NCBI GenBank assembly: GCA_016235665.1
Contig: JACRJI010000014.1
Coordinates: 62,001-126,000, forward strand
DNA: 64,000 bases
DNA from: a candidate division TA06 bacterium
Lineage (GTDB): Bacteria > Edwardsbacteria > AC1 > EtOH8
Direction: 5' to 3'
How positions within the stretch are numbered: position 1 is the first letter of the stretch; each line of letters begins with the position of its first letter. The notes below the pieces were generated by a model. That model made no database searches. It saw only the letters and a list, made by a program, of their open reading frames with translations, and was not told where the DNA came from. Both the position numbers and the translations under genes were made by a program. Of the stretch, positions 14,014 to 60,800 are shown in pieces.

Positions 14014-16260
14014 TTAACCCTTCAAAACATTCCACCATTTATGCCGCCGGTCCCGCTTCTTCTTGGAACCGTCATCGGCATAATAATAATTGTAATGGTA
14101 ATAATAATCGTAGCTGCCCGCCAGTCCGGAGAGTTCTATCTTATTCAGCACCACGCCCAAAATATTGGCCTTGAGGTTGCTTAGGATGGTCTTGGCCCTT
14201 AGCAGGGCCCGCTTGTCGGTGGCGTGCGATTTGACCACCAGTACCAGCCCGTCCACCTGGGGGCTTAACACCGCGGTGTCGGTGACGGTGATCACCGGCG
14301 GGCTGTCGAACAACACTAGGTCAAATTGCTGGCTCAGCAGCTTGATCAGGTCGCGCATTCTCTGCGAACCCAGCAGTTCCGAGGGATTGGGCGGGATGGC
14401 TCCGCAGGTCAGGATGGAAAGGTTCTCGATCCCCGAGGGTTTGACCACCTTATCCAAGGGCAGACGTTCGGCCAGCAGGTTGCTTAAGCCCGGTTCCCGT
14501 TCCAATCCGAAAAGTGAATGGACCACCGGCCGGCGAAGGTCGGCGTCAACCAGCAGGGTCCGGATGCCGGACAGGGCGGTGGTGATGGCCAGGTTGGCGG
14601 CCGAGGTTGATTTTCCTTCCGAAGGAGCGGCCGATGTGATGACCACGGTCTTTAGGGGATCGTCGATCCGGGAGAACTGGATGTTGGTCCTTAATGAACG
14701 GTAAGCTTCCGACACATGGGAGCGCGGGGTATATTTGGTGACCAGGGTGGCCGAGATCCGGGCCACCTCATCGCCTCCGTTTTTGCGGTTGCTTTTTCCG
14801 TTCTCGGAATGAATGGCCGGGATCAATCCCAGCACCGGCAGTTCAAAGTTATGCTCGATGTCCTCCACAGTTTTCACGGAGTTGTCCAGGGAATCCAAAA
14901 AGAACGACAGTCCCACTCCCAGGGTCAATCCCACCACCAGGCCGATGGCTATGTTCAGCATCTTGCGGGGTTTGATGGGGAATTGGGGCGGCTGGGCCCG
15001 GTCTATCACCCGGACATTCCCGATCTTGCCGGCCTCGGTGATCTTGGCTTCCTCGTGCTTCACCAGCAGCAGACGGTAAACGCTTTCACCCACCTCCTTG
15101 GCCCGCAGCAGCCGGGCCAGCTGCAGTTCCTTGTTGGGAAGCTTAGCCAGGCCAAAATCATACTGGGACAGGATGGTCTTTAAGGCAGTTTCCCTGGCTG
15201 ACATGGTGGCCCGCTGGATCTCCAGCGGAGGGATCTGGTCCAGCAAAGACTGGATCTGGGGCATCGGCGAAAGCCGGTTTTTCTGGGTTATCTTCTGTAG
15301 TTCCTCCAGCAGTCGGGCCTTGACATTGGCTATCTGGGCATTGAGATTCATGATCTGGGGGTGCTCGGGAGCATAGCCTTTAACCTGCAGTTTGATTATC
15401 TCCATCTGCAGGTTAACCAAATTGCTGCGCAGGCTGTCTGCCATGGAGCCGGCGCTCAGGGGCAGGCTGTTCTCTGTCAAGGCGCCCTGAGCTTTAAGCT
15501 GATCGTAGATGGCCGTCAGCCGGCCTTCGATGCTCTGGCGTTCGGTGGAGGCCGCGATCATCTGTTTGTCGGCCTCGGTGGCCCGGGACAAGATCTCCTT
15601 GCCTTCATCGGAAAGCGAGACCACCTGATTCTGGGACTTGAAGTTTTTGATGGCCTCTTCGGCGGTATTGAGGGTGGCCTCCACCGAGGGCAGCTGGGCC
15701 TCTATGAATTTACGGGTGGAGGAGGCCTGTTCCCGCTTGACCGATGCGCTCCTTTCCTTGATGACCTCGGCCACCAGATTGGCGATGTTGGAGGCGGCAT
15801 CCGGAGTGGGGCCCTGCACTTTAACCAGTATCACGTCTGAATCGCGGATGGGCTCGGCGGTGATGCTTTTTTTGATGATGTGGGTCAGCCGGTAGTTTTG
15901 CCGATCGGGATTCAGGCTGCGGTCCCGTCCCCGCAACAGCAGCAGGGAATATTCCGGGTCCAAAAGCCGGACCACTTCCTCGGCCAGGCTGCGGGACTTG
16001 ATCTCTTCGATCTGGTTCACTATATAGCTCTTGCGGGAGAAGGCCTCTGAGATGTCGAAGGACGGCAGCGGTTCCCGGCTCTGTTCAAAAATGATGGTGG
16101 TCTGGGCCTCGTAAACCGGGGGCATGGTAAAATTGGCCAGGGCGATTGGCAATACCACGCCCAGCAGGCAGGTGATGATCAGCAACCTGCGCCGCCATAA
16201 AAGGTCTATCAGTTCGTAAATATTGGACTCGCTGGTCCGGGTCTTTACATCCTGGTTCAA
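14014..16260 (-). CDS. Wzc-like polysaccharide co-polymerase / BY-type tyrosine kinase (copy 1)
   Basis: A 748-residue inner-membrane protein that would control chain length and export of an exopolysaccharide. Order: N-terminal Wzz segment with first transmembrane helix (about residues 30-50), long periplasmic coiled-coil region, GNVR lipid-side motif region ending in PKRPxxP-like IKPRKMLNIAIG, second helix (about 435-455), and a cytoplasmic kinase with Walker A SAAPSEGKS (about 543-551), Walker A' VDADLRRP and Walker B LVLFDSPPV. A tyrosine cluster near the C-terminus (SYDYYYHYNYYY) is the autophosphorylation tail. The best start is a TTG at 16260 with AAGG upstream. It pairs with the SLBB gene upstream and is paralogous to the kinase at 20.5-22.7 kb. 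Confidence 0.9.
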   Translation of the reverse strand: MNQDVKTRTSESNIYELIDLLWRRRLLIITCLLGVVLPIALANFTMPPVYEAQTTIIFEQSREPLPSFDISEAFSRKSYIVNQIEEIKSRSLAEEVVRLLDPEYSLLLLRGRDRSLNPDRQNYRLTHIIKKSITAEPIRDSDVILVKVQGPTPDAASNIANLVAEVIKERSASVKREQASSTRKFIEAQLPSVEATLNTAEEAIKNFKSQNQVVSLSDEGKEILSRATEADKQMIAASTERQSIEGRLTAIYDQLKAQGALTENSLPLSAGSMADSLRSNLVNLQMEIIKLQVKGYAPEHPQIMNLNAQIANVKARLLEELQKITQKNRLSPMPQIQSLLDQIPPLEIQRATMSARETALKTILSQYDFGLAKLPNKELQLARLLRAKEVGESVYRLLLVKHEEAKITEAGKIGNVRVIDRAQPPQFPIKPRKMLNIAIGLVVGLTLGVGLSFFLDSLDNSVKTVEDIEHNFELPVLGLIPAIHSENGKSNRKNGGDEVARISATLVTKYTPRSHVSEAYRSLRTNIQFSRIDDPLKTVVITSAAPSEGKSTSAANLAITTALSGIRTLLVDADLRRPVVHSLFGLEREPGLSNLLAERLPLDKVVKPSGIENLSILTCGAIPPNPSELLGSQRMRDLIKLLSQQFDLVLFDSPPVITVTDTAVLSPQVDGLVLVVKSHATDKRALLRAKTILSNLKANILGVVLNKIELSGLAGSYDYYYHYNYYYADDGSKKKRDRRHKWWNVLKG

Positions 16261-16354
16261 ATGTTTCGGCCTTCATCAAAGATGTTAAATATTTTGTCCA
16301 GGTCAACTTATTATGGTGCGTTTTCCCGGTAAGTATTCGGAACAAGCCCACGGT

Positions 16355-16828
16355 TCAACGGTTCCGGGAAATGAGATAGTAGACGTTGGCGATGACCGCC
16401 ATGTCTGCCACAAAAGAGATCGCGTCCTTCCAGAAAAAGCGGGCGTTGCGGGGCACCATCACGGCATCTCCGGGCCGCATCACTATCAGAGAATCGGCCC
16501 GTTCCTTGTTCAGGTACTTGTCCAGGTTGATCTTTTCGGTGCGGGGCATCTGTCCCAAGGCGTGGGAGATCTTGACCCGCCCCAACGCTGCGTATTGAGT
16601 GGGGCCGCCGGCCTTGGATATCACATCCAGCACCGTGGAGCCGTCCGGCACCCGGTAGACCCCGGGAGTGTTGACCTCGCCCCAGACATGGATCTCGATT
16701 TCCAGCTGTTGGTTTTGCCCCAGGTAAAAATTGTCCTTTTTAAAGTCCGGCTGCTGCTGGGATATCCCGTTGCTGGCGGCGAAGGCAAAGGAAAAAAGCA
16801 GGCTTAATATCTGATGTGATATTTTCAT
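16355..16828 (-). CDS. SLBB-domain polysaccharide export protein (copy 1)
   Basis: A 157-residue exported protein with a signal peptide, then one SLBB domain: IHVWGEVNTPGVYRVPDG, STVLDVISKAGGPT, and MRPGDAVMVPRNARFFW. The C-terminus has a hydrophobic stretch (AVIANVYYLI). Wza-type exporters usually have an additional Poly_export domain at the N-terminus, which is absent here, so this is a minimal SLBB protein that may cap or link the Wzc-like kinase to an outer-membrane channel. It lies 94 bases before that kinase on the same strand and is paralogous to the gene at 22.7-23.2 kb. Confidence 0.82.
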   Translation of the reverse strand: MKISHQILSLLFSFAFAASNGISQQQPDFKKDNFYLGQNQQLEIEIHVWGEVNTPGVYRVPDGSTVLDVISKAGGPTQYAALGRVKISHALGQMPRTEKINLDKYLNKERADSLIVMRPGDAVMVPRNARFFWKDAISFVADMAVIANVYYLISRNR

Positions 16829-16835
16829 AAATGAC

Positions 16836-18575
16836 TTATTTTCCTTTTTTAAGGCGATCCTTGGTCTTGCCCAGATATTCCTTGGCCTTGGCGTGTCCAG
16901 GATCGGCCGACAGCACCTGCTTGAAGGTTTTCTCAGCCACGGAGTATTCCTCGTTCATGAATTGCTGGACTCCCTTTTTATAAAGAGCGGCCACATCCTC
17001 TGCTGACATCTTGGCTGGCTTGGCAACCGCCGGCGGGGTTGGCTTGGGAGCAGAAACGGCAGCGGCTTTTGGCTTTTCCGCAGCCGGCGGTGCCGGAGCA
17101 GCGGAAGCGGGCGGCTGATAAGCCACCGGGGCCGGAGGCTGAGCCGAAGGGGTCTTGGTCTTTTTGCCCGAGGCAGGGGCGGGCGGCAGGGCCGCGGCCA
17201 CAATTTCTTTTTCCAGCGCTATCTGGCGCTCGATTTCCGATTTATCCTTAAGGGTCAGTTCCTCTTCAAAGCTCCGGTATCCTTCCAGGCTGGCGGATAC
17301 TTTATATTTTCCCGGGGGAACCACGGTGCCGAACTGCCCGGTTACGGGATCGGCGCTGACATCGCCGGCACGGCTGCTGTTGAAGGAAACGGTGGCCGGT
17401 AAAGGCTGGCCAGTGACCCGGTCAATCACTTTGCCCTTAAAGCCCGCTGTCTTCCGCTTCAGGGTCAGGTCCCATTTCTCCACCTTGCCTTCCTTGACAT
17501 TGATCTTGCGCTCCAGCCAGCGGTAGCCGTTGGCGTAGATGTGGACCTTGTATTCCCCGGGAGGCAGCTTGGCCTGATAATCGCCGGCTTCGTTGCTGAC
17601 CAGACCCGGAAGGTCGGAGCCGGGGAAGGTGATCATGCCCTTCATGGGGACGCCGGTCTCGCGGTCCTTGATCAGGCCGGCCACTGCGCCGCCGATGGTT
17701 CCGGAAATAGCCTTGCCGGCGGCAGCGGGGAAGTCAAATCCCAGGATCAGCTGCCAGGGAGCGGAGGCCCTGGTCAGCCCGATGTCGCATGCCAGGTTGA
17801 GCCCTAAAAACGGCAAGGGGGAATACCTGAGGCCGGGTGTTATTCTTAATTCGGTCCGGTCGGCTCCCCGGCCCCGCAAGACCAAATCATCGGGCACTGA
17901 GTCTTTTTGGGCTCCCAGCCGGTATTCGCCAGAGGCTTCCAGAAAAGCTGAAAGGTTCTTCTGGAATGAATATTCAGCCCCGGCCCCGAAAGGAACCTGG
18001 GGCCGCTCCTCGCCCCGGGTCAGAAAGCCCGCATTGATGAAGACCATGGTCTGTCCCAGGTTGATATCGGTCAATAATTTTGCGCCAAAATCAAGCTTAC
18101 CGGTCTGGGACGGGCCGTCCTGGTATTTTTCCTTATTCATCGGCACCGACAGGGTTGGCATGAAACCCAGGTCCAATTTTCCGTCCATCAAAGGCAGGCA
18201 GTACTTTGCCGACAGCACCGCATCGCCGGGACAGCCCAGGCTCTTGTCGTCAGAGGCGCTGTCCAGTACCGCCACTGTCCATTGCTCGGCATGGCCCACT
18301 CCGGCCGCCATCAGGGCCAGGTTCTTTACCGGTACAAAATACAGGGTGTTAAAGCTCCAGGCATCAAGCAGGGCGTCCTGGTTTCCCGACTGTCCGTAGT
18401 AGTTCTGTCCGGAATATGAGGTCAGGGCCGCCAGGCTGCGCCCGCCGTAACCGATCCCGGTCTTGGCCGACTGCAAATGGATCAGCCCCGGTCCGCCAAA
18501 GACAGGGTAGCGGGCGGCCCCGGCCAGAGAGGCTCCCACTAATAACAGACCCAGTAAAGTGAACTGCCTTTTCAT
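16836..18575 (-). CDS. envelope protein with carboxypeptidase-regulatory-like repeats and C-terminal TPR (copy 1)
   Basis: A 579-residue exported protein. After a signal peptide comes a region rich in alternating strands (about residues 20-285, beginning YPVFGGPGLIHLQSAKTG) that looks like a beta-barrel or porin-like domain. Two carboxypeptidase-regulatory-like domains follow (about 295-460; IKDRETGVPMKG and VIDRVTGQPLPA), then a Pro/Ala/Lys linker, and one TPR hairpin at the C-terminus (ALYKKGVQQFMNEEYSVAEK). It sits inside the exopolysaccharide cluster next to an almost parallel copy. It may link the outer membrane and peptidoglycan to the export machinery; this is inference. Confidence 0.7.
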   Translation of the reverse strand: MKRQFTLLGLLLVGASLAGAARYPVFGGPGLIHLQSAKTGIGYGGRSLAALTSYSGQNYYGQSGNQDALLDAWSFNTLYFVPVKNLALMAAGVGHAEQWTVAVLDSASDDKSLGCPGDAVLSAKYCLPLMDGKLDLGFMPTLSVPMNKEKYQDGPSQTGKLDFGAKLLTDINLGQTMVFINAGFLTRGEERPQVPFGAGAEYSFQKNLSAFLEASGEYRLGAQKDSVPDDLVLRGRGADRTELRITPGLRYSPLPFLGLNLACDIGLTRASAPWQLILGFDFPAAAGKAISGTIGGAVAGLIKDRETGVPMKGMITFPGSDLPGLVSNEAGDYQAKLPPGEYKVHIYANGYRWLERKINVKEGKVEKWDLTLKRKTAGFKGKVIDRVTGQPLPATVSFNSSRAGDVSADPVTGQFGTVVPPGKYKVSASLEGYRSFEEELTLKDKSEIERQIALEKEIVAAALPPAPASGKKTKTPSAQPPAPVAYQPPASAAPAPPAAEKPKAAAVSAPKPTPPAVAKPAKMSAEDVAALYKKGVQQFMNEEYSVAEKTFKQVLSADPGHAKAKEYLGKTKDRLKKGK

Positions 18576-18695
18576 GTGTCACCCCTATAGTTTGAGGTAC
18601 CTTAATTATAATGCTGCCCTGTAATTCCAGCCGTCTCCGGAAACCATTATCAGTCTGGTCCCGTTTACGGTTGTAGATTTTTTAGGAAAAAAGAT

Positions 18696-20381
18696 CTATC
18701 CCTTTGATTTCTTCAGGCGGTCCCGGGTCTTGCCCAGATAGTCCTTGGCCTTGGTGTGTCCGGGGTCTGCCGCCAGCACCTGCTTGAAGGTTTTCTCAGC
18801 CGGTGCATATTCCTCGTTCATGAATTGCTGGACCCCTTTTTTGTAAAGCGCGGTCACTTCCTCGGCCGACATCTTGGGGGTGGCCGGGGTTGCAGGTTTG
18901 ACCGTCGGAGCCGCCAACGGTGGTTTTGCCGTGACGGGCTTTGGTTTGATTTGGGCGGAAGTCACTGAAGGCGTTACCGGCTTGGGCGGAACCGCTGCCT
19001 GAACCAGCGGCTGCAGGGAAACGATCTGCTGCAGGTCTTCCTTGTCCTTGATAGCCAGGGCAAGATTTTGGGAGACATAACCGGGAGCGCCCACCGTCAA
19101 AGAATAATTTCCGGGAACAAGTTTTGCCAGATACTGGCCCGAGACCGGGTCGGTGCTGAAGATTTGTTGGCCGTCGGTTCCAAATGTCAGAGAAGCTTTC
19201 ATTGGTCTTTGACCGGTAGCGTCGGTAACCTTTAGTGTCAGCTGCCCCAGCTTTTTATTAAGGTCCAGCGCCCAGCCGGCGTCCTGTCCGGCTTTCACTT
19301 CCATCTCCCTGGTAATTGTGCGGTATCCGTCAGCTTTGACCTGGATCTTGTAGCGGCCGGGTTTTAGTTTAAGACGGTAGTTTCCTTTGGCGTCGCTGAT
19401 GACGGCCGGGATATCCTGGCCGGGGAAGGAGATGATCCCCTTGATGGCGGCTCCGGAAGAGTTATCCTTGATGATGCCGGCCACCGCCCCCCACAGCGGA
19501 GCAACCAGCGACCTGCCAGCCGCCGCCGGGAAATCGACCCCGATGACAGCCTGCCAGGGGGCCGTGGCCCGGCTTAGCCCGATGTCGCAGGCCAGGTTCA
19601 GTCCCAGGTAAGAGACCGGGGCAAAGCGCAGTCCCGGGGTGACCCGGGCCTCATTCCGGTCGGCTCCGCGACCCCGCAGGATCTGGTCAGTGCTCAAAGA
19701 ATCTTTTTGGGCGCCCATCCGTAGTTCGGCCGAAACTTCCAAAAATCCCGAGAAGTTCGGGCTGAAACCATACTCCAATCCCAGTCCCAATGGTAGCTGG
19801 GGACGCTGGCCGCCCCGGGTCAGGAACCCGGTGTTCACCAAGACCGCCAGGTCGGAAAAGTTGATATCCGACAATATCTTTCCCCCGAAATCCAGCTTGC
19901 CGCTTTGCGACGGGGAATCCTGATATTTGGTGCGGCTCATTGGTATCGTGACCATGGGCATCAGCCCCAGATCCCACCGGCCATTCTGCAGGCTCCACTG
20001 GTATTTCAGGGCCAACAGGGCATCACCGGGACAGCCCAGCGATTTGTCGATGGTTTGTGCGGTTGAGGCCGGACTTTTCACCGTCCATTGTTCGGCGTGG
20101 GCCAGTCCGTTGCCGATCACCGACAGCCCTGGCATCGGCGAGTAGCTGATGGAATTGTGATTCCAAAGGTCTGTAAAGGCGTCATCCGTTCCCTGCAGGC
20201 CGTAGAAGGTCTGGTTGGAATACGAGGATACCGCGGCCAGGCTGCGGTATCCAAACCCCGGTCCGGCCTTGGCCGACTGAAGGTGAACCAAGCCAGGCCC
20301 CCCCACCAATGGGAACTGGGTGGCCGTGACAACTGAAGCCGCTATCCCCAGTGACAAGGATAGAAATAATTTTATTTTCAT
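18696..20381 (-). CDS. envelope protein with carboxypeptidase-regulatory-like repeats and C-terminal TPR (copy 2)
   Basis: A 561-residue paralogue of the preceding gene with the same order: signal peptide, strand-rich N-terminal domain beginning FPLVGGPGLVHLQSAKAG, two carboxypeptidase-regulatory-like domains (IKDNSSGAAIKG; VTDATGQRPMKA), a Pro-rich linker and a TPR tail (ALYKKGVQQFMNEEYAPAEK). The N-terminal and TPR parts are well conserved between copies while the linker differs. It is downstream of the second Wzc-like gene, separated by 87 bases. Role inferred only from context. Confidence 0.7.
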   Translation of the reverse strand: MKIKLFLSLSLGIAASVVTATQFPLVGGPGLVHLQSAKAGPGFGYRSLAAVSSYSNQTFYGLQGTDDAFTDLWNHNSISYSPMPGLSVIGNGLAHAEQWTVKSPASTAQTIDKSLGCPGDALLALKYQWSLQNGRWDLGLMPMVTIPMSRTKYQDSPSQSGKLDFGGKILSDINFSDLAVLVNTGFLTRGGQRPQLPLGLGLEYGFSPNFSGFLEVSAELRMGAQKDSLSTDQILRGRGADRNEARVTPGLRFAPVSYLGLNLACDIGLSRATAPWQAVIGVDFPAAAGRSLVAPLWGAVAGIIKDNSSGAAIKGIISFPGQDIPAVISDAKGNYRLKLKPGRYKIQVKADGYRTITREMEVKAGQDAGWALDLNKKLGQLTLKVTDATGQRPMKASLTFGTDGQQIFSTDPVSGQYLAKLVPGNYSLTVGAPGYVSQNLALAIKDKEDLQQIVSLQPLVQAAVPPKPVTPSVTSAQIKPKPVTAKPPLAAPTVKPATPATPKMSAEEVTALYKKGVQQFMNEEYAPAEKTFKQVLAADPGHTKAKDYLGKTRDRLKKSKG

Positions 20382-20468
20382 TAAAAAACCTCCCCTCCCA
20401 CATTTCAGGGGGATTGAGTTTAATTACTGCTACTGTTGCCTGCGGGAATCATTGATCAAGTCAGGGTT

Positions 20469-22697
20469 CTATTTTTTATTCTTACGTTTGCCTTTTTCCC
20501 CTTTTTTGCGGTGGCCGTCCTCGTAGTAGTAGTGATAGTAATAACTGTACCCGGCCAATAAGTCGGAGCTGATATTGTTCAGCACCGTACCGGCGATCTT
20601 GGCTTTGACATTGGTTAAAAGACTCTTGGCCCGCCGGGCGGCCTCACGGTCGGTCTTGCCAGATTGTATTACCAGCACCACACAGTCGGCTTCGGCTGCC
20701 AGCACTGCGGCATCGGTAACGGTGATCACCGGCGGACAGTCAAGGATAACCAGATCGCAGCACTTCTTCATTTCCTGGATCAAATGTTTCATCTTCTGCG
20801 AACTCAGCAGCTCGGAAGGATTAGGAGGAATGGTGCCGGCCGGCAGAATGAAAAGATTTTCAATGTCGGTGGAGACCATGGCCTTCTGCAGGTCGCCTCC
20901 TTTCACCAAAAGCTCGGTCAGTCCCGGCTCCTGGGGAATGCCGAAAACCCCGTTGACCATGGGACGCCGGAGGTCGGCATCCACGATCAAAGTGCGGGAT
21001 CCCACCTGAGCCATGGTAATGGCCATATTGGAAGCGGTAGTGGTCTTTCCCTCCGATGGTCCGGCGGATGTCACCAGGATGGTCTTCATCGGGGCGTCGG
21101 GGTTTAGAAACTGCAGGTTGGTGCGCAGTATCCGGTAAGCTTCCGAAATGGGCGACTTGGGCAGGTGGTGACTGATCAACCGTTCGGCAATGGCATTGGC
21201 CCCGTTGGGTATCTTGCCGTTTTCAGCCTGGCTGGCCACATCCTCCTGATCAATGGCAGGGATCAGTCCCAGCACCGGCAGCCCCAAGAACTGCTCGATA
21301 TCATGAATATTCTTAAGCGAGGTGTCCATATATTCCATCAGCAGAACCAGCCCTATGCCCAAAGCCAGGCCCAGGAATCCGCCGAATATTATGTTGAGTT
21401 TCCGCCGCGGGCCTACCGGCTCCTTGGGGATCTCGGCCGGATCGATTATTTTGACGTTGCCCAGTTTGCCGGCCTCGGAGATCCTGACCTCCTCGTATTT
21501 TTCCATCAGCATCTTGTAGATGTTGTCGTCCAGCTCAAACTGACGGGTCAGGCGGGCCAGCTCCACCTCCTTGGGCGGGATGGCTTTCAGTTTTTCCAGA
21601 TAATCATTCACCACCCTCTGTTGAGCCAATTCTTTGGCTTTGTATGTCTCTATCTCCACCTGAAGGTCCAGGATCTTTACTACCAGGTCCTCGGAAAATA
21701 AGATCGGATCAATTCCGCCGTTATCCTGGGCCACTATCTTGGATATCTCCTCCTTCAGCCGGGATTTGGTGTTTTCAATTTTCTTGCCCAGTTCCTTCAT
21801 CTTGGGATGATCCCCCGGAAAACCCTGGGAGGTCATGGTAGCCATCTGGGTCTGGAGGGTCAGGAGATCCTGGCGCAGACCGGAGGCCAATGGCGAAGAG
21901 ACCTGGGAAACGTTCTCCAGCATGTTCTTTTTCTGGAAGTCCAATTGGTCCTGCAGGTAGATCAGCCGCTTTTCGGCCGATTCCCGCTCTACCCGGGTCA
22001 GGTTATACTGGGATTCAAAGCCGGTCAGTTTGTCGATCAGGAATTTTGATTCTTCGGAAAGCGAAATCACTTGGTTGGTTTGCTTAAACAATCGCAATTG
22101 GTTTTCTTCGGAAAAGAGTCTTTTTTCAATTACCGGAAGCTGTACTTCCAAAAAGCGGCGGATCTCCGTGAACTCGCCCCGGCTATAACTTAAGTTCCGG
22201 GAGATGAAGGCCTGTCCTACTGTATTGGCAATGGCCGCCGCCTGGGTCGGGCCGTTGCTGCTGGCCACGACTGTGATAACGTCTGATGTGCGGGAAGAAA
22301 GCACGGCGGTGGAAAACATGATGGTTTCGGTCAGCAGGGTATCGGCAATGAAACCCAACTCCCTGGCATCGGGCCTGGCTTTCAGTATCATGGCGGCTTC
22401 TCCGGCCAGGCTGCGGCTGCGGATGATCTCCACCTGGTTATTGATCATGTTGCGGCTTTGTTCTGTCTCCATCATCATACCCAAAATGGGCTTATTGTCC
22501 CGCTGGACCAAAAGGCTGATGTTGGCTTCGTAGATATTTGGCTGTCTAGCCGAAAATATGATTGAGGAAACCAACACCGGAAGGAAGGCCCCCAGCACTA
22601 TCCAGCGGCGGCGCATAATTACCCGTATCAGGTCCTGAAGGCCGGGCTGTGATGATTCTGTTGAAGTTAGTTTTCCCTGGGTAAATTCGTTTTTCAT
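20469..22697 (-). CDS. Wzc-like polysaccharide co-polymerase / BY-type tyrosine kinase (copy 2)
   Basis: A 742-residue paralogue of the kinase at 14-16.3 kb: N-terminal Wzz region with helix near residues 30-50, coiled-coil periplasmic part, PVGPRRKLNIIFGG before the second helix (about 428-448), and kinase domain with Walker A SAGPSEGKT (about 534-542), Walker A' VDADLRRP, Walker B LVILDCPPV and a C-terminal tyrosine cluster GYSYYYHYYYEDG followed by a lysine-rich end. ATG start. It follows the second SLBB gene by 6 bases, so those two are certainly one transcript. No glycosyltransferases or Wzx/Wzy genes are near. Confidence 0.9.
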   Translation of the reverse strand: MKNEFTQGKLTSTESSQPGLQDLIRVIMRRRWIVLGAFLPVLVSSIIFSARQPNIYEANISLLVQRDNKPILGMMMETEQSRNMINNQVEIIRSRSLAGEAAMILKARPDARELGFIADTLLTETIMFSTAVLSSRTSDVITVVASSNGPTQAAAIANTVGQAFISRNLSYSRGEFTEIRRFLEVQLPVIEKRLFSEENQLRLFKQTNQVISLSEESKFLIDKLTGFESQYNLTRVERESAEKRLIYLQDQLDFQKKNMLENVSQVSSPLASGLRQDLLTLQTQMATMTSQGFPGDHPKMKELGKKIENTKSRLKEEISKIVAQDNGGIDPILFSEDLVVKILDLQVEIETYKAKELAQQRVVNDYLEKLKAIPPKEVELARLTRQFELDDNIYKMLMEKYEEVRISEAGKLGNVKIIDPAEIPKEPVGPRRKLNIIFGGFLGLALGIGLVLLMEYMDTSLKNIHDIEQFLGLPVLGLIPAIDQEDVASQAENGKIPNGANAIAERLISHHLPKSPISEAYRILRTNLQFLNPDAPMKTILVTSAGPSEGKTTTASNMAITMAQVGSRTLIVDADLRRPMVNGVFGIPQEPGLTELLVKGGDLQKAMVSTDIENLFILPAGTIPPNPSELLSSQKMKHLIQEMKKCCDLVILDCPPVITVTDAAVLAAEADCVVLVIQSGKTDREAARRAKSLLTNVKAKIAGTVLNNISSDLLAGYSYYYHYYYEDGHRKKGEKGKRKNKK

Positions 22698-22703
22698 TTA
22701 ATG

Positions 22704-23204
22704 CTACCTCACTCCAGTCACTACCAGATAGGCAGTGATTATTACAGCCGCCTGACTTAAAAAGGTGGCCGCCCTAATCATTTTGTGATACAGGGTGGAG
22801 GGCACAATCACCACATCGCCCTGTTCCAGCATAGGAACCAGGGACCGGTCGGCTTTTCCGGTATATTTGGAAATATTCACTTTTTGGGTTTGTCCGGAAC
22901 CGAAAGTTCCCCTGACCAGTTTAACCCTGGAAAGGGCGGCATCTTCGGTGGGGCCGCCGGCATAAGAAATCAGGCCCACCACATCAGTGGTAACCGGAAC
23001 CCGGTACCGGCCGGGTTTACTTACCTGGCCCCAGATCTGGACCTCGACCAAAACCTCGCGCTCGTAAATATCGCCGGAGGTGCCGGCCGGGCCCTGTGCT
23101 CTCTCCATATAACCGCCGGCTTGGGCAAAGGCCAAACTTGCTCCGCCGAAAAGCCAACAAGCTATCAGTATTGCCGCCTTAAATTTCAATGTAAAAAATC
23201 TCAC
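22704..23204 (-). CDS. SLBB-domain polysaccharide export protein (copy 2)
   Basis: A 166-residue exported protein with signal peptide ending in SLAFAQA and an SLBB domain: VQIWGQVSKPGRYRVPVT, GLISYAGGPTEDAALSRVK and MLEQGDVVIVPST, then a C-terminal hydrophobic stretch. It lacks the N-terminal Poly_export domain of full Wza proteins. Start is a GTG at 23204, ten bases after AAGGAG; no ATG is available before the signal peptide. It heads the minus-strand exopolysaccharide operon and has its own promoter about 75 bases upstream. Confidence 0.82.
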   Translation of the reverse strand: MRFFTLKFKAAILIACWLFGGASLAFAQAGGYMERAQGPAGTSGDIYEREVLVEVQIWGQVSKPGRYRVPVTTDVVGLISYAGGPTEDAALSRVKLVRGTFGSGQTQKVNISKYTGKADRSLVPMLEQGDVVIVPSTLYHKMIRAATFLSQAAVIITAYLVVTGVR

Positions 23205-53773: not shown

Positions 53774-54878
53774 ACATTTAATTTTAACACTTCTATTTAT
53801 GGTCCTTGCAGGATGCGTTAATGATAAGGCCTTGAATAAAAGCAATGATCCCATTATAAATAATAATGGGAAAGCAGGATTAACTGCTACGGGTATGACG
53901 GTAGATGTGCCTGGGCCATTGCTTAGATCTGAGATAATACTTGACGAAATGCCCGAGTTAGATAAATGGACCAAAGTAACGATAAAGGTAAAACTAAACC
54001 GCGATGCTAAGACATATTATACAGAGCCACATACCGAAGATTTTCCGGAGGGGCCCGAAATAATTCTTACTGGTAGTGAAGGAGTTGAATTAAATACTGT
54101 AAGCAAGGATAGAATAAATAATGGCATAAAAGGTCAGGAATACCGTGCCAGTTTTAAAATACGGCCATTTATGGTGGGCGGATTAGAAATCAATTCTAAC
54201 GGAGCAAGTATAAAGTTTACCTTAGATGACAATGGAAAAACTGTTTTTATGAAAAGCCGGGAAGAATGGGAAGTGATGATAGGACCAAAGCATGCTGCCG
54301 TGAAGAATATGGGCGAGGGCATAGATACTATGACGATATATCGCTATACGCCAGAACAGAATGAAATGATTAATAAATTATGGCCTCCAAAGTATCTTGC
54401 CCCAAAGAACAAACCTATTATTATTGTTACTCCAGAACGGATACAATTGGGTGAAATAGAAATAGTACCCGCTCCAGCCATAGGACACGTTTCCAAGGTT
54501 ATCTGGACGTTGAAGGCAAAGGATAGAGGAGAACTTCCTAAAGTTGAACAGTTAATGTCCTTTAAAAGTGTAGTCCACGCTAAGCCTGGCCAGGAATATG
54601 TTACCAAGGATCAGATTGAGGAATACAGAGACGCTTTTAAGTGTTCGGATATATCAGCTTGGGAAATAATGAATGATAGTACGTATGCCTTATCATTTAC
54701 CATAGAGCCTTTGATGATTATAAAAAATAGTGAAAATGGACGTCTAAGGATTTCATGGTGGTATGGTATGCCGCCTGAAAACAAATATGGAAGATATAAA
54801 TCAATTTACTTTGTTATCGGCGAAGATGGTAAATTAAAAACAATAGACGGCCATGAGATGAAGGAAACGGAAAAATGA
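53757..54878 (+). CDS. hypothetical lipoprotein
   Basis: A 373-residue exported lipoprotein with signal MLTKSKHLILTLLFMVLAGC (lipobox LAGC, Cys 20). The mature part reads like several Ig-like beta domains: WTKVTIKVKLNRDAKTYYTE, GGLEINSNGASIKFTLDDNG and IKNSENGRLRISWWYGMPPE, but no family was recognised. Overlaps at both ends: 17 bases with the previous gene and four (ATGA) with the giant secreted protein gene, so the three genes are co-translated and their products probably act together at the cell surface. Confidence 0.65.
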   Translation: MLTKSKHLILTLLFMVLAGCVNDKALNKSNDPIINNNGKAGLTATGMTVDVPGPLLRSEIILDEMPELDKWTKVTIKVKLNRDAKTYYTEPHTEDFPEGPEIILTGSEGVELNTVSKDRINNGIKGQEYRASFKIRPFMVGGLEINSNGASIKFTLDDNGKTVFMKSREEWEVMIGPKHAAVKNMGEGIDTMTIYRYTPEQNEMINKLWPPKYLAPKNKPIIIVTPERIQLGEIEIVPAPAIGHVSKVIWTLKAKDRGELPKVEQLMSFKSVVHAKPGQEYVTKDQIEEYRDAFKCSDISAWEIMNDSTYALSFTIEPLMIIKNSENGRLRISWWYGMPPENKYGRYKSIYFVIGEDGKLKTIDGHEMKETEK

Positions 54879-57800
54879 AGACGATCAGATTTATTAATCT
54901 TTGCCTTTTCTCTTTGGCGATATTTACTGGTTTTGCCATTGCAGAGAAAAAGGAAATAGAAGCTAAGAGAACCGCTACATCTAAGGTATTTAGAAACGAC
55001 GACGGCACGCATACATTTCAGATTTATACAGAACCAAAGCATTATTATGAAGGGGGCAAATGGAAGGAGATAGATACCAAAATAGTCCCATACGGCAAAG
55101 ATGGGTATGATTATGCCTGTTTGACAAGTGATATAAAAACATATTTCAAAGGCAACGAAGGCCTATTTGGAGTAACTGATAAAAAATATAAATGGAACTT
55201 GATTGAAATAACTGATAATGATAAACATAACTTTAGATATATAAAAGCTGACCTCAAGCAGAATAAAGACAACAGTATAATATATAAATACGGGCAGAAT
55301 GGGGCTTTAACTTGGATCACTACAGCTAAAGGATTGAGTTGGATATATAAGGGTTCAAATCTTAAAAAAATAATATATCGTTTGAGCATACCAAGGGAAT
55401 ATTCTTTATATCAAGGGAAAGAGAGAATAAATTCTAGAATAAAAATTAAAAACAACCTAACAGCTTGCGATTCTTTAAGCGCATTTATGGCTGGGATTTC
55501 AATCCCTTTTGCTTTTCGGGAAAATAACGAAAAGATGGGGTTGGTTCTAGAAAATACAGTGGAGATGATAAATGCTGGCGAATATGAGTTTATATCGGAA
55601 ATCACTGACAGCAAGACCGATGATTCAATATCAGTAAAATCTCAATCATGGTTATTCACAGCCGGTAATGACGCTTTCATTGCATCTGGATATCCGGACA
55701 GCTATAATAACACTTATAATTTATGGGTGGGATACGATTCAACCTATGGATTCAAAAAGGAGCGAAGTTTATTAAGATTTGATGTGAGTCCGCTTGCCGG
55801 TGGAGCCAGTGTGACTTCAGCAACATTTAGCGCCAGGGTAAAAGGTTATACCGGTCCGGCAAATACTACATGCAATGTTACCGCCTACCGAGCGACTTCG
55901 TCATGGACTGAAGGTGGAGCTACTTGGAATAATATGTCAAGTTATTATTCAGAAAGCTATGGCACGCAGTCTGTCGGAGATACGGGTCGTTACAACTGGG
56001 ATGTAAAAAACCTATCTCAATATTGGATAAGTGGAACTTACAATAATTATGGCTTAATGTTGATCGCTGCCAATGAAAGCGGCGGGGATAAGGAGCGTTA
56101 CTTTTATTCGGACGAAAGTGGGACGTATGTGCCGTCACTTAATATTACATGCAATCTTCCCGATTTGATAACCTATACTCCATCGGGTTGGGACGATAAG
56201 ATTGTTGCTTCATCTGTTACCGGCACTAATACTACCAATACGTTGTATGCCCAAAAACCAACTTATATTGATTTAGCCATAATGAACAATACTTCGGTTT
56301 CAGTTATTAAGGGGTTCTATGTTAAAATATATTTGGACGGTAGTGAAATAAATACGCAATATTGTAGTAGCTTAAGCGGCAATACCAGTAAAACATGGTC
56401 AGATATAAATTACACCGTATATACACCCGGATGGCATAAGATTAAAATTGTAATTGATACTACCGGCGATATAACAGAAGAAAGCGAAACAAACAATTCG
56501 TATGAAAAGTTATTCTATTGGAAACGGCTACCGGATTTGTGGCCAGGTGTTATTACCACTTCCTCGCCACTTATTACAAACGAACCTTGCACTATTTACT
56601 GGAGCGTGTGGAATACCGGCGATACAATTTCAGGTGGATTTTATACCGGGCTTTATGTTGACGGGAATAAAAAAGATAATCAATATTTAAGCAGTTTAGC
56701 GGCCGGCGGCTATCAACCGTTTACTACAACTTATACCGCAACGACTGGCGGAAATCATACCATAAAAGTTATTTGCGATTCTTCTAATCAGGTTATGGAA
56801 ATTGACGACAGTCCCTCGGATAACATACTTACATATACTGCCAGTTGGAATACAAGGCCCAATGCGTGTACAAATCCTTCGCCTGTCAATGGTGTTACAG
56901 GAGTTGATTTAAGCGTTATCCTTCAATGGTATTGCACTGATCCTGATGGTCAGGCAATTACAAAATACCGTCTTCAATTATCCACAGATTCAACATTTAC
57001 CTCTACAGTGTTTGACGGTGAAGTTACCGCAAATTCTTATCAAGCCACCAACCTGTGGCGCGCTACTAAATATTATTGGCGGGTTAAAGGTTATGACGGT
57101 AGCCTTTGGTGCAATACCTGGAATACTTGGCGATTTACCACGGCGGATAATCAGTTTTGGGTTAGCGGCCATGTTAAGTATAAAAACCTTGATGATAATA
57201 CTATAAAAGGCATACCCCAGGCTTGGGTGGTATTGTATGACACAAACGATGCAACACCAAGATATATAGATTCTGTAAAAACATTAAGTGACGGTAGCTT
57301 CAATTTTGGTTTTGTTACCGCTGCTTCATTTGACCCAAAATTTATAATCCATACCAAACTAATAAACGAAATTTGTGTTGTAAAAGATACAGTTCCAAGT
57401 ATATATACCGATATTTCAGATACATCAAGTTGCCAAATATATCCCTCCGGTATTACCACGATATATCGGGGAATAAATGAAACTGGTAAAGACAGCATTT
57501 TTAACCAAGCATGCCATATCTTTGATGCCATTAACCAAACGTATAATTGGGTGGATAACAACACCAGTCCAAACTGGAAAAGGTCACAGATAACCGTATC
57601 GTACAATTATACGAATACCGATAGCACCAGCAGGTTCAGACCTGTCCCGGTTGGAATCGGTAGTATCATTATTACAGGCAAACCTCAAGTATTGTTGAGA
57701 TCGGGTTTAATAGTGCCCGGTTACAGATCGGAGAGGCCCTATCACGAATATGCCCATGCTATAATGTACAAAGTTTATGGAGATACTTTCCCACCGGGCT

Positions 57801-60800
57801 ATGGCGTTTCTGAACATTACCCATATAAGGTAACTAACCCTGGCAATGCCACAACCGAGGGCTTTGCCGAGTTTCTTCCTTGTGCAGTAAAGAACAACAA
57901 GGACTATCTGGTTTATTACAAGAGCTCTTATAACACCACGATGCAAGATGTCGAAACCAACCAGTGGCATTATACCGGTGATGCAGTAAGCATTGAGGGT
58001 GCAGTGGCTTCAATCTGGTGGGATATGCAGGACACCTTTACCGACTCCGACGAAGATTCTGGAGGACTATCAAACAAGTTCAGTAATATATTTAGTATTT
58101 TGAAAGATAATAAAATAAGAAACATAAGTCAGTTTTACAGTTATTACCGTTCTAATCCCGCTTTAGCAGGGGATACTTCAAAATTAAAGAGGATATATTA
58201 TAAGCACGGTATAGATTATTACAAGGCAGTTTTAGGATTTGAAGTATGGCAATCACCGCCAATAAACAATCCAGTGCCGAATCAAAGCGGTTGCGTGAAT
58301 ATCAATAGCGATACTACTGGAATAGAAAACGGCGTATATCCACACAACGGCGATTACATGTATAGATTATCAGGCACAGATGCCAGCAGTGATAACAGTT
58401 ATGCCTTTGTTAATTTATTTGACGTTAATATACCACTAATACCAGGCCCCAACTATGCTGCAAAATATTTATCATTTTGGGTATATATTGTAGAATCACC
58501 TGGCGCTGGTTGCATAAGCCTCGAACTTGTTACAGCTAAAAAAGGTGCTATACGGGATTACAACTATAAAGGAATGTATATTTCTGATCAATTCGGCCAA
58601 AGATTGCATCCAGCCGGCCGCAATGTCCCGAAAGGTCAATGGGTAAACTATATATGTGACCTTTCGATCCTAAACCCATCAATATACGCTGACGATACAC
58701 TTAGACAAATACAGGTGGCATATGATGATGGGAATTCAGCCGAAACAGGTGATTATTTGGCATATATAGATGATATTGAAATAAGTGAGTTTTCATATCC
58801 GACATTTGCCTGGGGTTACGTGGAGGATCCCACAACAGTTAAAGTAAGTTGGAATGATAATAATATTGACGAAGATGGTTTCCATGTGTGGTGGAAAAAC
58901 CAAAGTGACAGCACATTTATCAATCCGCCACTTTGGGTTGATTCGGTTTCAGGTATGGGAGGGAAAGGATATTGTACAATAACCGGGCTTTCAACGGGGA
59001 GTAGCTACAATTTTATGGTTCGCTCCAAACGAGGTGAACAGGTATCCGCATACGAATGGAGATACGCAACATCAAAAATAGCGGCTCCCGAAACACCAGC
59101 TCCACCAAGTGCGAAATTCCATACTCCCTCTTTAGAAATAAATGATACTATTCCATCTATTAATGTAAATAACGCACACTACGACTATAGTTCCAATATA
59201 TTTGAATGGGAAAGGAAGATTGACTCGACAGGCGTATGGACAAAAATAAAGGAAACGCCTTCTTGGTATGTTGTCGGCCATACTGATGCAACAAATATTA
59301 TTGATTCAAACATTATTTTTAATCATGATTATTATTATCGCTTGAGAGCCTATAATGGTTGTGGCAAATCAGAATATTCGGTAGAAACAAAAATACCGAT
59401 ATATTTTAAACCCCCAACAAACACAAATGCTATTGCATATGAAGCAGTAGATCCTTTATCCGGAACACATACATTGAAAATTGATTTATCATGGGGGGAT
59501 AATTCAACCATCGAAGCAGGGACATTAGTCTTTATAAAAAAAGCAGGGGGTGATTCATTTGTGGTTGCATTAGGCCCAAATATCACTAGTGCTTCAATAA
59601 GTGGTTATTGGGATGGTCAATGGCATTCCATTGAACCACTTTCCACCTATTATATTAAAGTAGCTCAGTATTGGATGTATTATAATGGATATAGAAGGAC
59701 CGAATATTCCAATACGGTTGAGGTATTTGTTCCCAAGATCGGCTATACCAATAATAACAACGCCCGCAAGCTGTTCCGTGGTGGCGATGACAAACTGAAC
59801 GCAACATTCTATGATGGAACACAGATTTATTGGGCCTCGTCAATCAACAATGGTTTATCGTGGTCTGTAACGGCGCCAAAAACCGGCGGCAATCCGACCG
59901 TTGCCGAGAAGAAAAGCAACAGCGCAATCTACTCGGTGCGGGTGAAGAAAGACAGCCTGTTGTTGGACAGCCTGGGCGTAACTTCGGGCTTTGGCAAGGT
60001 CATAAAAACCGGCGCTAAGATGTTCAACCCGGCCATTGCCACCGATAGTCTGGGTAACCTATATTGCGCTTGGGCGGAAACGGTATTGGCTATTGAAACA
60101 AGGTATGATCCTTTTGGTAGGTTTATAGAACACCGTTGGACATATACAATGAAGGTTCAATATGCAAAAAGAACAGGAGGTGTTTGGTCTTCACCGTCCG
60201 TGCTTCAGCCAATATCTGTATCTACGACGGGGTGGCAAGATTTCCCACCTTCGCCTTTCGATGAATTTATTGACATATCAAGTCCATCAATAGCGGTAAA
60301 TAAATCAGGCAATAGTATTTTACCCCATATAACCTGGGAACATAAACATGGAAGTTACAATATGTTTTCCGGGTGGTCCTTGGATACTTCAATAATATAT
60401 CATTATAATGCTGGAACATCTATTGGCATGACAGTAAGCGCCACAGGCGTTCTGGCAAGCTCTCCCTGCTTGGGAGTGAATAACGATGGCGCATTGGTTT
60501 TAGCATGGCAGCAAAATGGTGACATTTACCGAAGCACCAACAACGGAAGTGCCTGGAGCACGCCTTACAACGTTAGCAACAATACCGGGGCTTCGCAGAT
60601 GCCGACAGTGGCCTGCGACAAGGGCGGCACGTTGCATTTTCTCTGGTATGACGACAGTGACAGCGGTTTTGTGCAAAAGATATCAACCTTGCCTGTCGGA
60701 ACCGACGCAAAATTGGCTATAGCAAAACTTACCGAACTACCGCAAGGTGAGGAGTCGATAGTTTGGGAAGATGTACAAAAAGTAGAGATTGATAGTCTGA

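Follow-up and report, generated by a model that had tools for sequence, protein, structure and literature searches.

Six minus-strand genes in a stretch of 64,000 nucleotides (hereafter the window; contig 14, positions 62001-126000 of a Candidatus Edwardsbacteria (UBP2) genome of 2.71 Mb in 16 contigs, completeness rating 100%) probably encode polysaccharide export proteins of a reduced type. In our reading, a small protein with a single SLBB domain and a C-terminal hydrophobic helix, devoid of the PES domain (Poly_export, PF02563), acts as an export pair with a Wzc-type tyrosine kinase, to which we assign a probability of roughly 55%; the polymer may leave through this helix or through predicted outer-membrane barrels encoded in the same block.

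In the order of transcription, the block consists of SLBB-B (22704..23204), kinase-B (20469..22697), barrel-B (18696..20381), barrel-A (16836..18575), SLBB-A (16355..16828) and kinase-A (14014..16260), separated by 6, 87, 120, 7 and 94 nt; a previous reading, made from the sequence only, had described all six open reading frames at this place and in this order. Both small proteins carry a signal peptide (signal peptides were assigned by eye), one SLBB domain (PF10531, E 6e-13 and 9e-12 in Pfam; about residues 42-125 in SLBB-A) and the C-terminal helix. The two kinases, already recognised as Wzc-like in the sequence-only reading, contain Wzz, GNVR and kinase P-loop domains according to Pfam and share 41% identity, with Walker A, Walker A' and a tyrosine-rich tail kept in both (8 tyrosines within the last 45 residues of kinase-A), and so display the sequence features of polysaccharide co-polymerases (PCP) of the PCP-2a/BY-kinase type. 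The Walker B pattern used matched kinase-A only, the corresponding stretch of kinase-B reading VILDCPP; judged from domains and motifs, both are predicted to be intact Wzc-type tyrosine kinases. The two envelope proteins (52% identity between barrel-A and barrel-B) are of one predicted architecture, an outer-membrane barrel followed by two carboxypeptidase-regulatory-like domains, a Pro/Ala linker and a TPR-like tail, for which Pfam reports CarboxypepD-regulatory/PEGA domains and sub-threshold TPR matches.

The absence of PES was claimed before for the two small proteins, and indeed neither gives a match. The search for PF02563 was likewise empty throughout the host genome, with the control search being positive in E. 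coli and three others, so that a Wza as defined by PES is missing as well, again in line with the previous claim. A PES domain hidden upstream seems unlikely for either protein, considering the reading frames: SLBB-A starts only 7 nt past the end of barrel-A, and in-frame stops occur within 210 nt upstream of SLBB-B. Since there is no upstream room at either small gene and no PES match in the genome, the PES-less state is real, and no PES protein that could make up for it was found in the remainder of the host genome. Two of the ten genomes of the family contain a PES protein above the cut-off, each some 690 residues long and with multiple SLBB domains. Compared with outer membrane polysaccharide export (OPX) proteins in their PES-based definition, the small proteins of the window hence retain the SLBB domain and the genetic coupling to a PCP, and lack the PES domain itself.

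SLBB-A is found in all ten Edwardsbacteria genomes of the family, invariably with a barrel gene adjoining it, and kinase-A likewise is present in 10/10, which in both cases is far beyond chance. Kinase-A adjoins SLBB-A in six genomes, and in four SLBB-A and the barrel have no kinase beside them; in one genus (4 genomes), kinase-A follows a gene pair which, from its sequence, we take to be dnaA-dnaN-like, and is located 35-42 kb from SLBB-A in three genomes and on a separate contig in the fourth. SLBB-B and kinase-B occur together in the same five genomes and are both absent from the other five; in one of the genomes (G009) they stand away from the barrels, within a gene cluster for glycosyltransferases and enzymes of sugar modification. 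These patterns of adjacency and presence identify barrel and SLBB-A as the core and SLBB-B/kinase-B as a separate, movable pair. Looked for in related genomes, as the sequence-only reading had proposed, the same block or its core is therefore present.

The pair is widespread, being encoded in other little-studied phyla as well, as seen in 70 loci (taxon titles as deposited), which were collected with 12 SLBB proteins and with patterns built from the Edwardsbacteria SLBB proteins, a procedure favouring this architecture and including many close relatives, from metagenome-assembled genomes that are incomplete. A PES-less SLBB protein is encoded in 66 of these loci, and PES was matched in 4 of 72 aligned SLBB proteins (two of the 72 being those of the window); an in-house PES profile, which recovered 42/42 control regions, marks the SLBB proteins of L180, L184, L185 and L186 and additionally two other neighbourhood proteins (L179, L183). 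A Wzc-type kinase is encoded nearby in 62/70 loci, as the next gene, judged by clustering, in 57, and 59 of the 66 loci with a PES-less SLBB protein possess one. Among KSB1, Caldithrix and Latescibacterota, a homologue of an initiating transferase (PHPT) or of Polysacc_synt_2 is found within 3.3 kb in 11/70 loci, and three loci of Zixibacteria display the order CpsB-SLBB-kinase, two of these with a Wzx. Both the frequent pairing and these polysaccharide-related neighbours, like the glycosyltransferase cluster of G009, speak for an export pair.

A further example comes from the host genome itself. Genome-wide, SLBB is matched by the two window proteins, a three-SLBB protein on contig 15 and one 609-residue frame on contig 12, and GNVR by the two window kinases and one PCP without kinase domain, again on contig 15. 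On this contig, a full locus unites genes for nucleotide sugars, glycosyltransferases and an initiating transferase with those for Wzx, Wzy, the three-SLBB protein and the PCP. The three-SLBB protein (L014:9341-10255), present in 9/10 Edwardsbacteria genomes, is devoid of PES, too, and has a hydrophobic helix at its end; by its gene content, the full Wzx/Wzy locus of the genome thus appears to pair another PES-less SLBB protein with a PCP, which counts in favour of our reading. Two flippases of the Wzx type and two proteins of the Wzy/ligase type are encoded on contig 16 along with glycosyltransferases; the 10 proteins scanned there across 19 kb include neither an OPX protein nor a PCP, and SLBB and GNVR have no match on this contig. 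Contig 3 encodes glycosyltransferases and an initiating transferase. The block could serve the products of contig 16 or contig 3.

In its predicted fold, SLBB-A resembles WzaB and Wza. The model of SLBB-A (50 sequences, mean pLDDT 86) comprises the SLBB fold (42-125) and a helix of 28 residues (129-156; block-mean pLDDT >90). Its best match is WzaB of M. xanthus (9n9a, Z 14.1, 85 residues, 1.6 A), Wza is matched at Z 11.5-13.9 (2j58: Z 12.3), and a sequence profile search with SLBB-A retrieves Wza chains at E 5e-11 to 5e-6. Along the helix, polar columns are found at 134/135, 138, 141/142, 148 and 155, position 142 being polar in 46/50 and position 148 in 47/50 sequences, which again argues for an export function, and the hydrophobic moment is highest at 110 degrees (permutation p 0.015). 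On a central-value insertion scale, the lowest cost of a 19-residue window in the SLBB helices has a median of 5.1 (range -1.9 to 8.4, 64 sequences; SLBB-B 2.4), in comparison to 13.4 for Wza D4 and to -0.8 and -2.3 for the membrane helices of 57 kinases. With this intermediate cost, the SLBB helix is unlike an ordinary inner-membrane helix and unlike Wza D4.

The AlphaFold model of barrel-A is of moderate confidence (8 sequences, mean pLDDT 71) and predicts 12 strands (42-282), two beta-sandwich domains (296-456), a disordered proline-rich linker (457-520) and a helical tail (525-578), matching the barrel-regulatory-TPR architecture previously put forward. By fold it resembles the 12-stranded channels FapF (Z 20.8), the COG4313 channel (19.8), KdgM (17.9) and NanC (17.5), with Z in the range of 17.4 to 20.8 and a sequence identity as low as 8 to 14%; residues 296-375 match the transthyretin-like domain of carboxypeptidase D (Z 14.2). 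These four channels are not known to be related to SLBB/Wzc systems. In the synthase-dependent porins PgaA and BcsC, TPR and barrel are joined in one chain, in which the window barrels seem to resemble them, whereas here the TPR is C-terminal, behind the two beta-sandwich domains, and no synthase is seen beside the barrel. A first search of genome contigs with the barrel protein found no relative, and no related barrel was found in the loci of other phyla carrying the pair. The barrels are best read as a lineage-specific outer-membrane partner of the pair.

How helix and barrel share the work can be imagined in several ways. In a portal resembling that of Wza, an alpha-helical outer-membrane pore would be formed by the C-terminal SLBB helices alone, the small protein being an OPX trimmed to one ring and a D4-like helix, and the barrels would do otherwise, e.g. 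secrete or anchor protein. The confidently predicted helix straight after the SLBB domain, its polar stripe of helical periodicity, a character less membrane-like than that of the kinase helices, the lack of related barrels among the loci of other phyla and the best fold match of the barrel, FapF being a protein-secretion channel, are all compatible with this view; however, Wza D4 is far less hydrophobic than this helix, and the barrel and SLBB-A genes are adjacent in each of the ten Edwardsbacteria genomes. We regard such a portal as unlikely. Somewhat less likely still, the helix could serve as an inner-membrane anchor and the SLBB protein as an adaptor next to Wzc, leaving the barrel alone as the outer-membrane exit. 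Such a role would suit the type-I-like layout, in which a signal peptide, a periplasmic domain, a hydrophobic helix and a basic C-terminus follow one another, the low insertion cost of SLBB-B and some other helices, and the nearly constant coupling to the kinase gene, but it is at odds with a strongly polar mid-helix residue conserved in 45/50, with a median helix cost that clearly exceeds the values of the membrane helices in the kinases and with the lack of related barrels in the loci of other phyla.

Docking on the kinase must differ from E. coli, given that PES/D1 is missing: there, according to PMC12881504, Wza contacts the helical arm of Wzc through D1, and deletion of D1 abolishes the co-localisation with Wzc. 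Kinase-A aligns with E. coli Wzc on either side of the stretch corresponding to the jelly-roll and has about 80 residues fewer before the helical arm; this alignment suggests that kinase-A is seemingly devoid of a jelly-roll domain. The number of OPX rings was related to the periplasmic length of the PCP in 50 regions (40 hand-chosen PES places, two PES places of the family and eight three-SLBB places), of which 33 pairs including E. coli were kept (the membrane-helix filter removed L212, distance excluded L222 and L242, and no PCP was in view in the rest). Both quantities are inversely related (Spearman -0.79, 33 pairs, L194-L243, relatives not being independent). With 60 kinases of one-ring partners added, the coefficient falls to -0.51, because their median periplasmic length (390 residues) equals that of the two-ring PES partners (388; three-ring PES partners 383). 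The helical arm measures 229-234 residues in the kinases of one-SLBB partners and 136 in E. coli Wzc, yet it also measures 205-234 residues in kinases of two- and three-ring PES partners in related phyla. Extra-long arms compensating for missing OPX rings are therefore rejected as an explanation, and the inverse relation is shown only at the long-OPX end. Two of the three seven-ring OPX proteins pair with co-polymerases almost without a helical arm.

Taking the export pair as the most probable reading, we envisage the block as two separate OPX-like/PCP pairs of the Wzx/Wzy type, with two barrels tied to pair A. The polymer would be made by the Wzx, Wzy and glycosyltransferase sets located elsewhere in the genome; a ring of the Wzc-type kinase in the inner membrane would receive it from Wzy and hand it on to a single SLBB ring, controlling both polymerisation and export by phosphorylation of its own tyrosine tail. 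The small partner would represent an OPX protein reduced to this single SLBB ring and the C-terminal helix, which the kinase arm would meet directly, the D1 dock being absent, and whose helices may reach or line the outer-membrane exit. The polymer could then leave via the barrel, via a pore built from the C-terminal SLBB helices, or via both together, and in Edwardsbacteria the barrel, with its long linker and a TPR tail reaching into the periplasm, might complete or gate this exit. The alternative export portal, which the sequence-only reading had proposed for SLBB proteins lacking Poly_export and combined with a barrel-regulatory-TPR protein, is in this respect plausible.

Among the known systems, Wza-Wzc of the E. 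coli colanic acid and group 1 capsule shares with the window the SLBB fold, the Wzc-type BY-kinase with its tyrosine tail and a helix after the last SLBB domain, but here PES/D1 is absent, one SLBB domain is present instead of two, the helix is more hydrophobic and the kinase apparently lacks the jelly-roll. The composite translocons of Myxococcus (EpsY/EpsX, WzaX-S-B/WzpX-S-B) likewise couple a short OPX-type protein genetically to a barrel and a PCP. Their OPX protein keeps D1 (PES) and has no helix, and their barrel has 18 strands (PMC9601211, PMC9603273), whereas the small proteins of the window have a helix but no PES, and the barrel, with 12 predicted strands, carries regulatory-like and TPR domains. 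The coupling of barrel and OPX-like genes is found in 10/10 family genomes, and a D1D2 OPX protein is not, D1 being absent. In its proposed mode of action the pair resembles both systems; as it lacks both the PES of the OPX proteins and the D1D2 feature of the composite translocons, we file it as a member of neither.

Several observations weigh against polysaccharide export by the pair. Among the Pfam-scanned genes next to the block there is no glycosyltransferase, Wzx or Wzy; the earlier statement that these are lacking holds for the scanned neighbours and not for the genome, in which they are encoded on contigs 15 and 16. The kinase is not visibly longer, as might be expected if it replaced the lost rings, and the 12 strands predicted for barrel-A (mean pLDDT 71) fall short of the 16-18 of known polysaccharide porins. 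Furthermore, PES was matched (E <=0.001) in 36 of the 50 other genomes searched (of 62 wanted) and in none of the remaining 14, so in those genomes a further OPX protein may exist beside the PES-less one. Finally, a PorU homologue is encoded within 7 kb in 24/70 loci, and in 20 loci of the Cloacimonadota type (L134, L136, L141-L142, L144-L149, L151-L152, L155-L156, L159, L161-L163, L167 and L169) the order is PorU (C25 peptidase), PorV-like barrel, FN3-like lipoprotein, SLBB and kinase, so that the substrate in Cloacimonadota may not be a free polysaccharide. L159 is titled 'Armatimonadetes' and shows this Cloacimonadota gene order. Comparing the profiles of the barrel and of the Cloacimonadota lipoprotein yielded nothing.

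The PorU-PorV context hints at a link between polysaccharide co-polymerases and type IX attachment. That the pair exports a glycan to which type IX-secreted proteins attach is nonetheless the least probable of the explanations considered, for although this operon and the several C25 peptidases in all ten Edwardsbacteria genomes would fit, the C25 matches of the host genome all lie off the contig of the window, and the KSB1 and Zixibacteria loci resemble ordinary polysaccharide clusters. The C25 matches number 5 to 10 in each of the ten Edwardsbacteria genomes, suggesting type IX secretion, and in G009 one of them is situated some 5 kb away from the barrel genes.

Beyond the export pair as such, it is conceivable, albeit doubtful, that the proteins constitute a fourth, PES-less class of exporters, which would consist of an SLBB ring with C-terminal helix and no D1, be widespread in phyla of the FCB group, dock on Wzc without D1, be completed in Edwardsbacteria by 12-stranded barrels with periplasmic TPR tails to give a translocon unlike Wza or EpsX/EpsY, and feed type IX surface attachment in Cloacimonadota. 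Of the two large OPX surveys considered, one (PMC9601211) picks its candidates through PES and the other (PMC9603273) sorts them by the arrangement of PES and SLBB domains; resting on PES, they would not count PES-less proteins. Literature searches in open-licence PubMed Central found no description of PES-less or single-SLBB exporters, no link between PorU and Wzc, and nothing on exopolysaccharide in Edwardsbacteria. Should the proteins prove to be true exporters, polysaccharide export would be under-annotated in several phyla and D1 as the dock for Wzc would not be a general rule. The PorU-PorV context, in turn, makes a possible link from polysaccharide co-polymerases to type IX surface attachment amenable to testing.

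The presence of two copies requires a different explanation than the one offered before, in which a whole module was duplicated. In a carefully built tree of 28 rows, kinase-A groups with those of KSB1, WOR-3, Latescibacterota and the Caldithrix type (support 100/99), apart from kinase-B, and a clade of kinase-A and kinase-B was rejected (AU, approximately unbiased, test, p=0.0023; quick tree of 24 rows, four long-branched rows being dropped, with the tested group named after seeing the first tree). That the SLBB-kinase pair arose twice by tandem duplication within Edwardsbacteria is thereby dismissed; from their sequences, only the barrels look like paralogues of the lineage. Of the two uses suggested previously for the copies, two polymers are favoured over hetero-complexes because of the separate ancestry of the kinases and the location of the lone pair of G009 in a glycosyltransferase cluster.

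The two barrel genes have diverged unevenly. Barrel-A and barrel-B group by genus (support 93/98 and 87/93), while in the first regulatory-like domain barrel-A of the host genome shares 76% identity with barrel-A of G005 and 48% with barrel-B. The TPR ends of barrel-A and barrel-B show 84-89% protein identity within the host genus, and their coding DNA (16840-17014 and 18703-18877) is 85% identical versus 62% in the barrel part, with a synonymous divergence (dS) of 0.56 in the TPR segment and 1.8 in the barrel segment. This pattern is probably due to gene conversion at the TPR end. Scans for promoters and terminators yielded 11 sites versus 5.7 expected and 11 versus 14.1 expected, respectively, and near the end of the window a single open frame of 2776 codons extends over positions 54875-63205.

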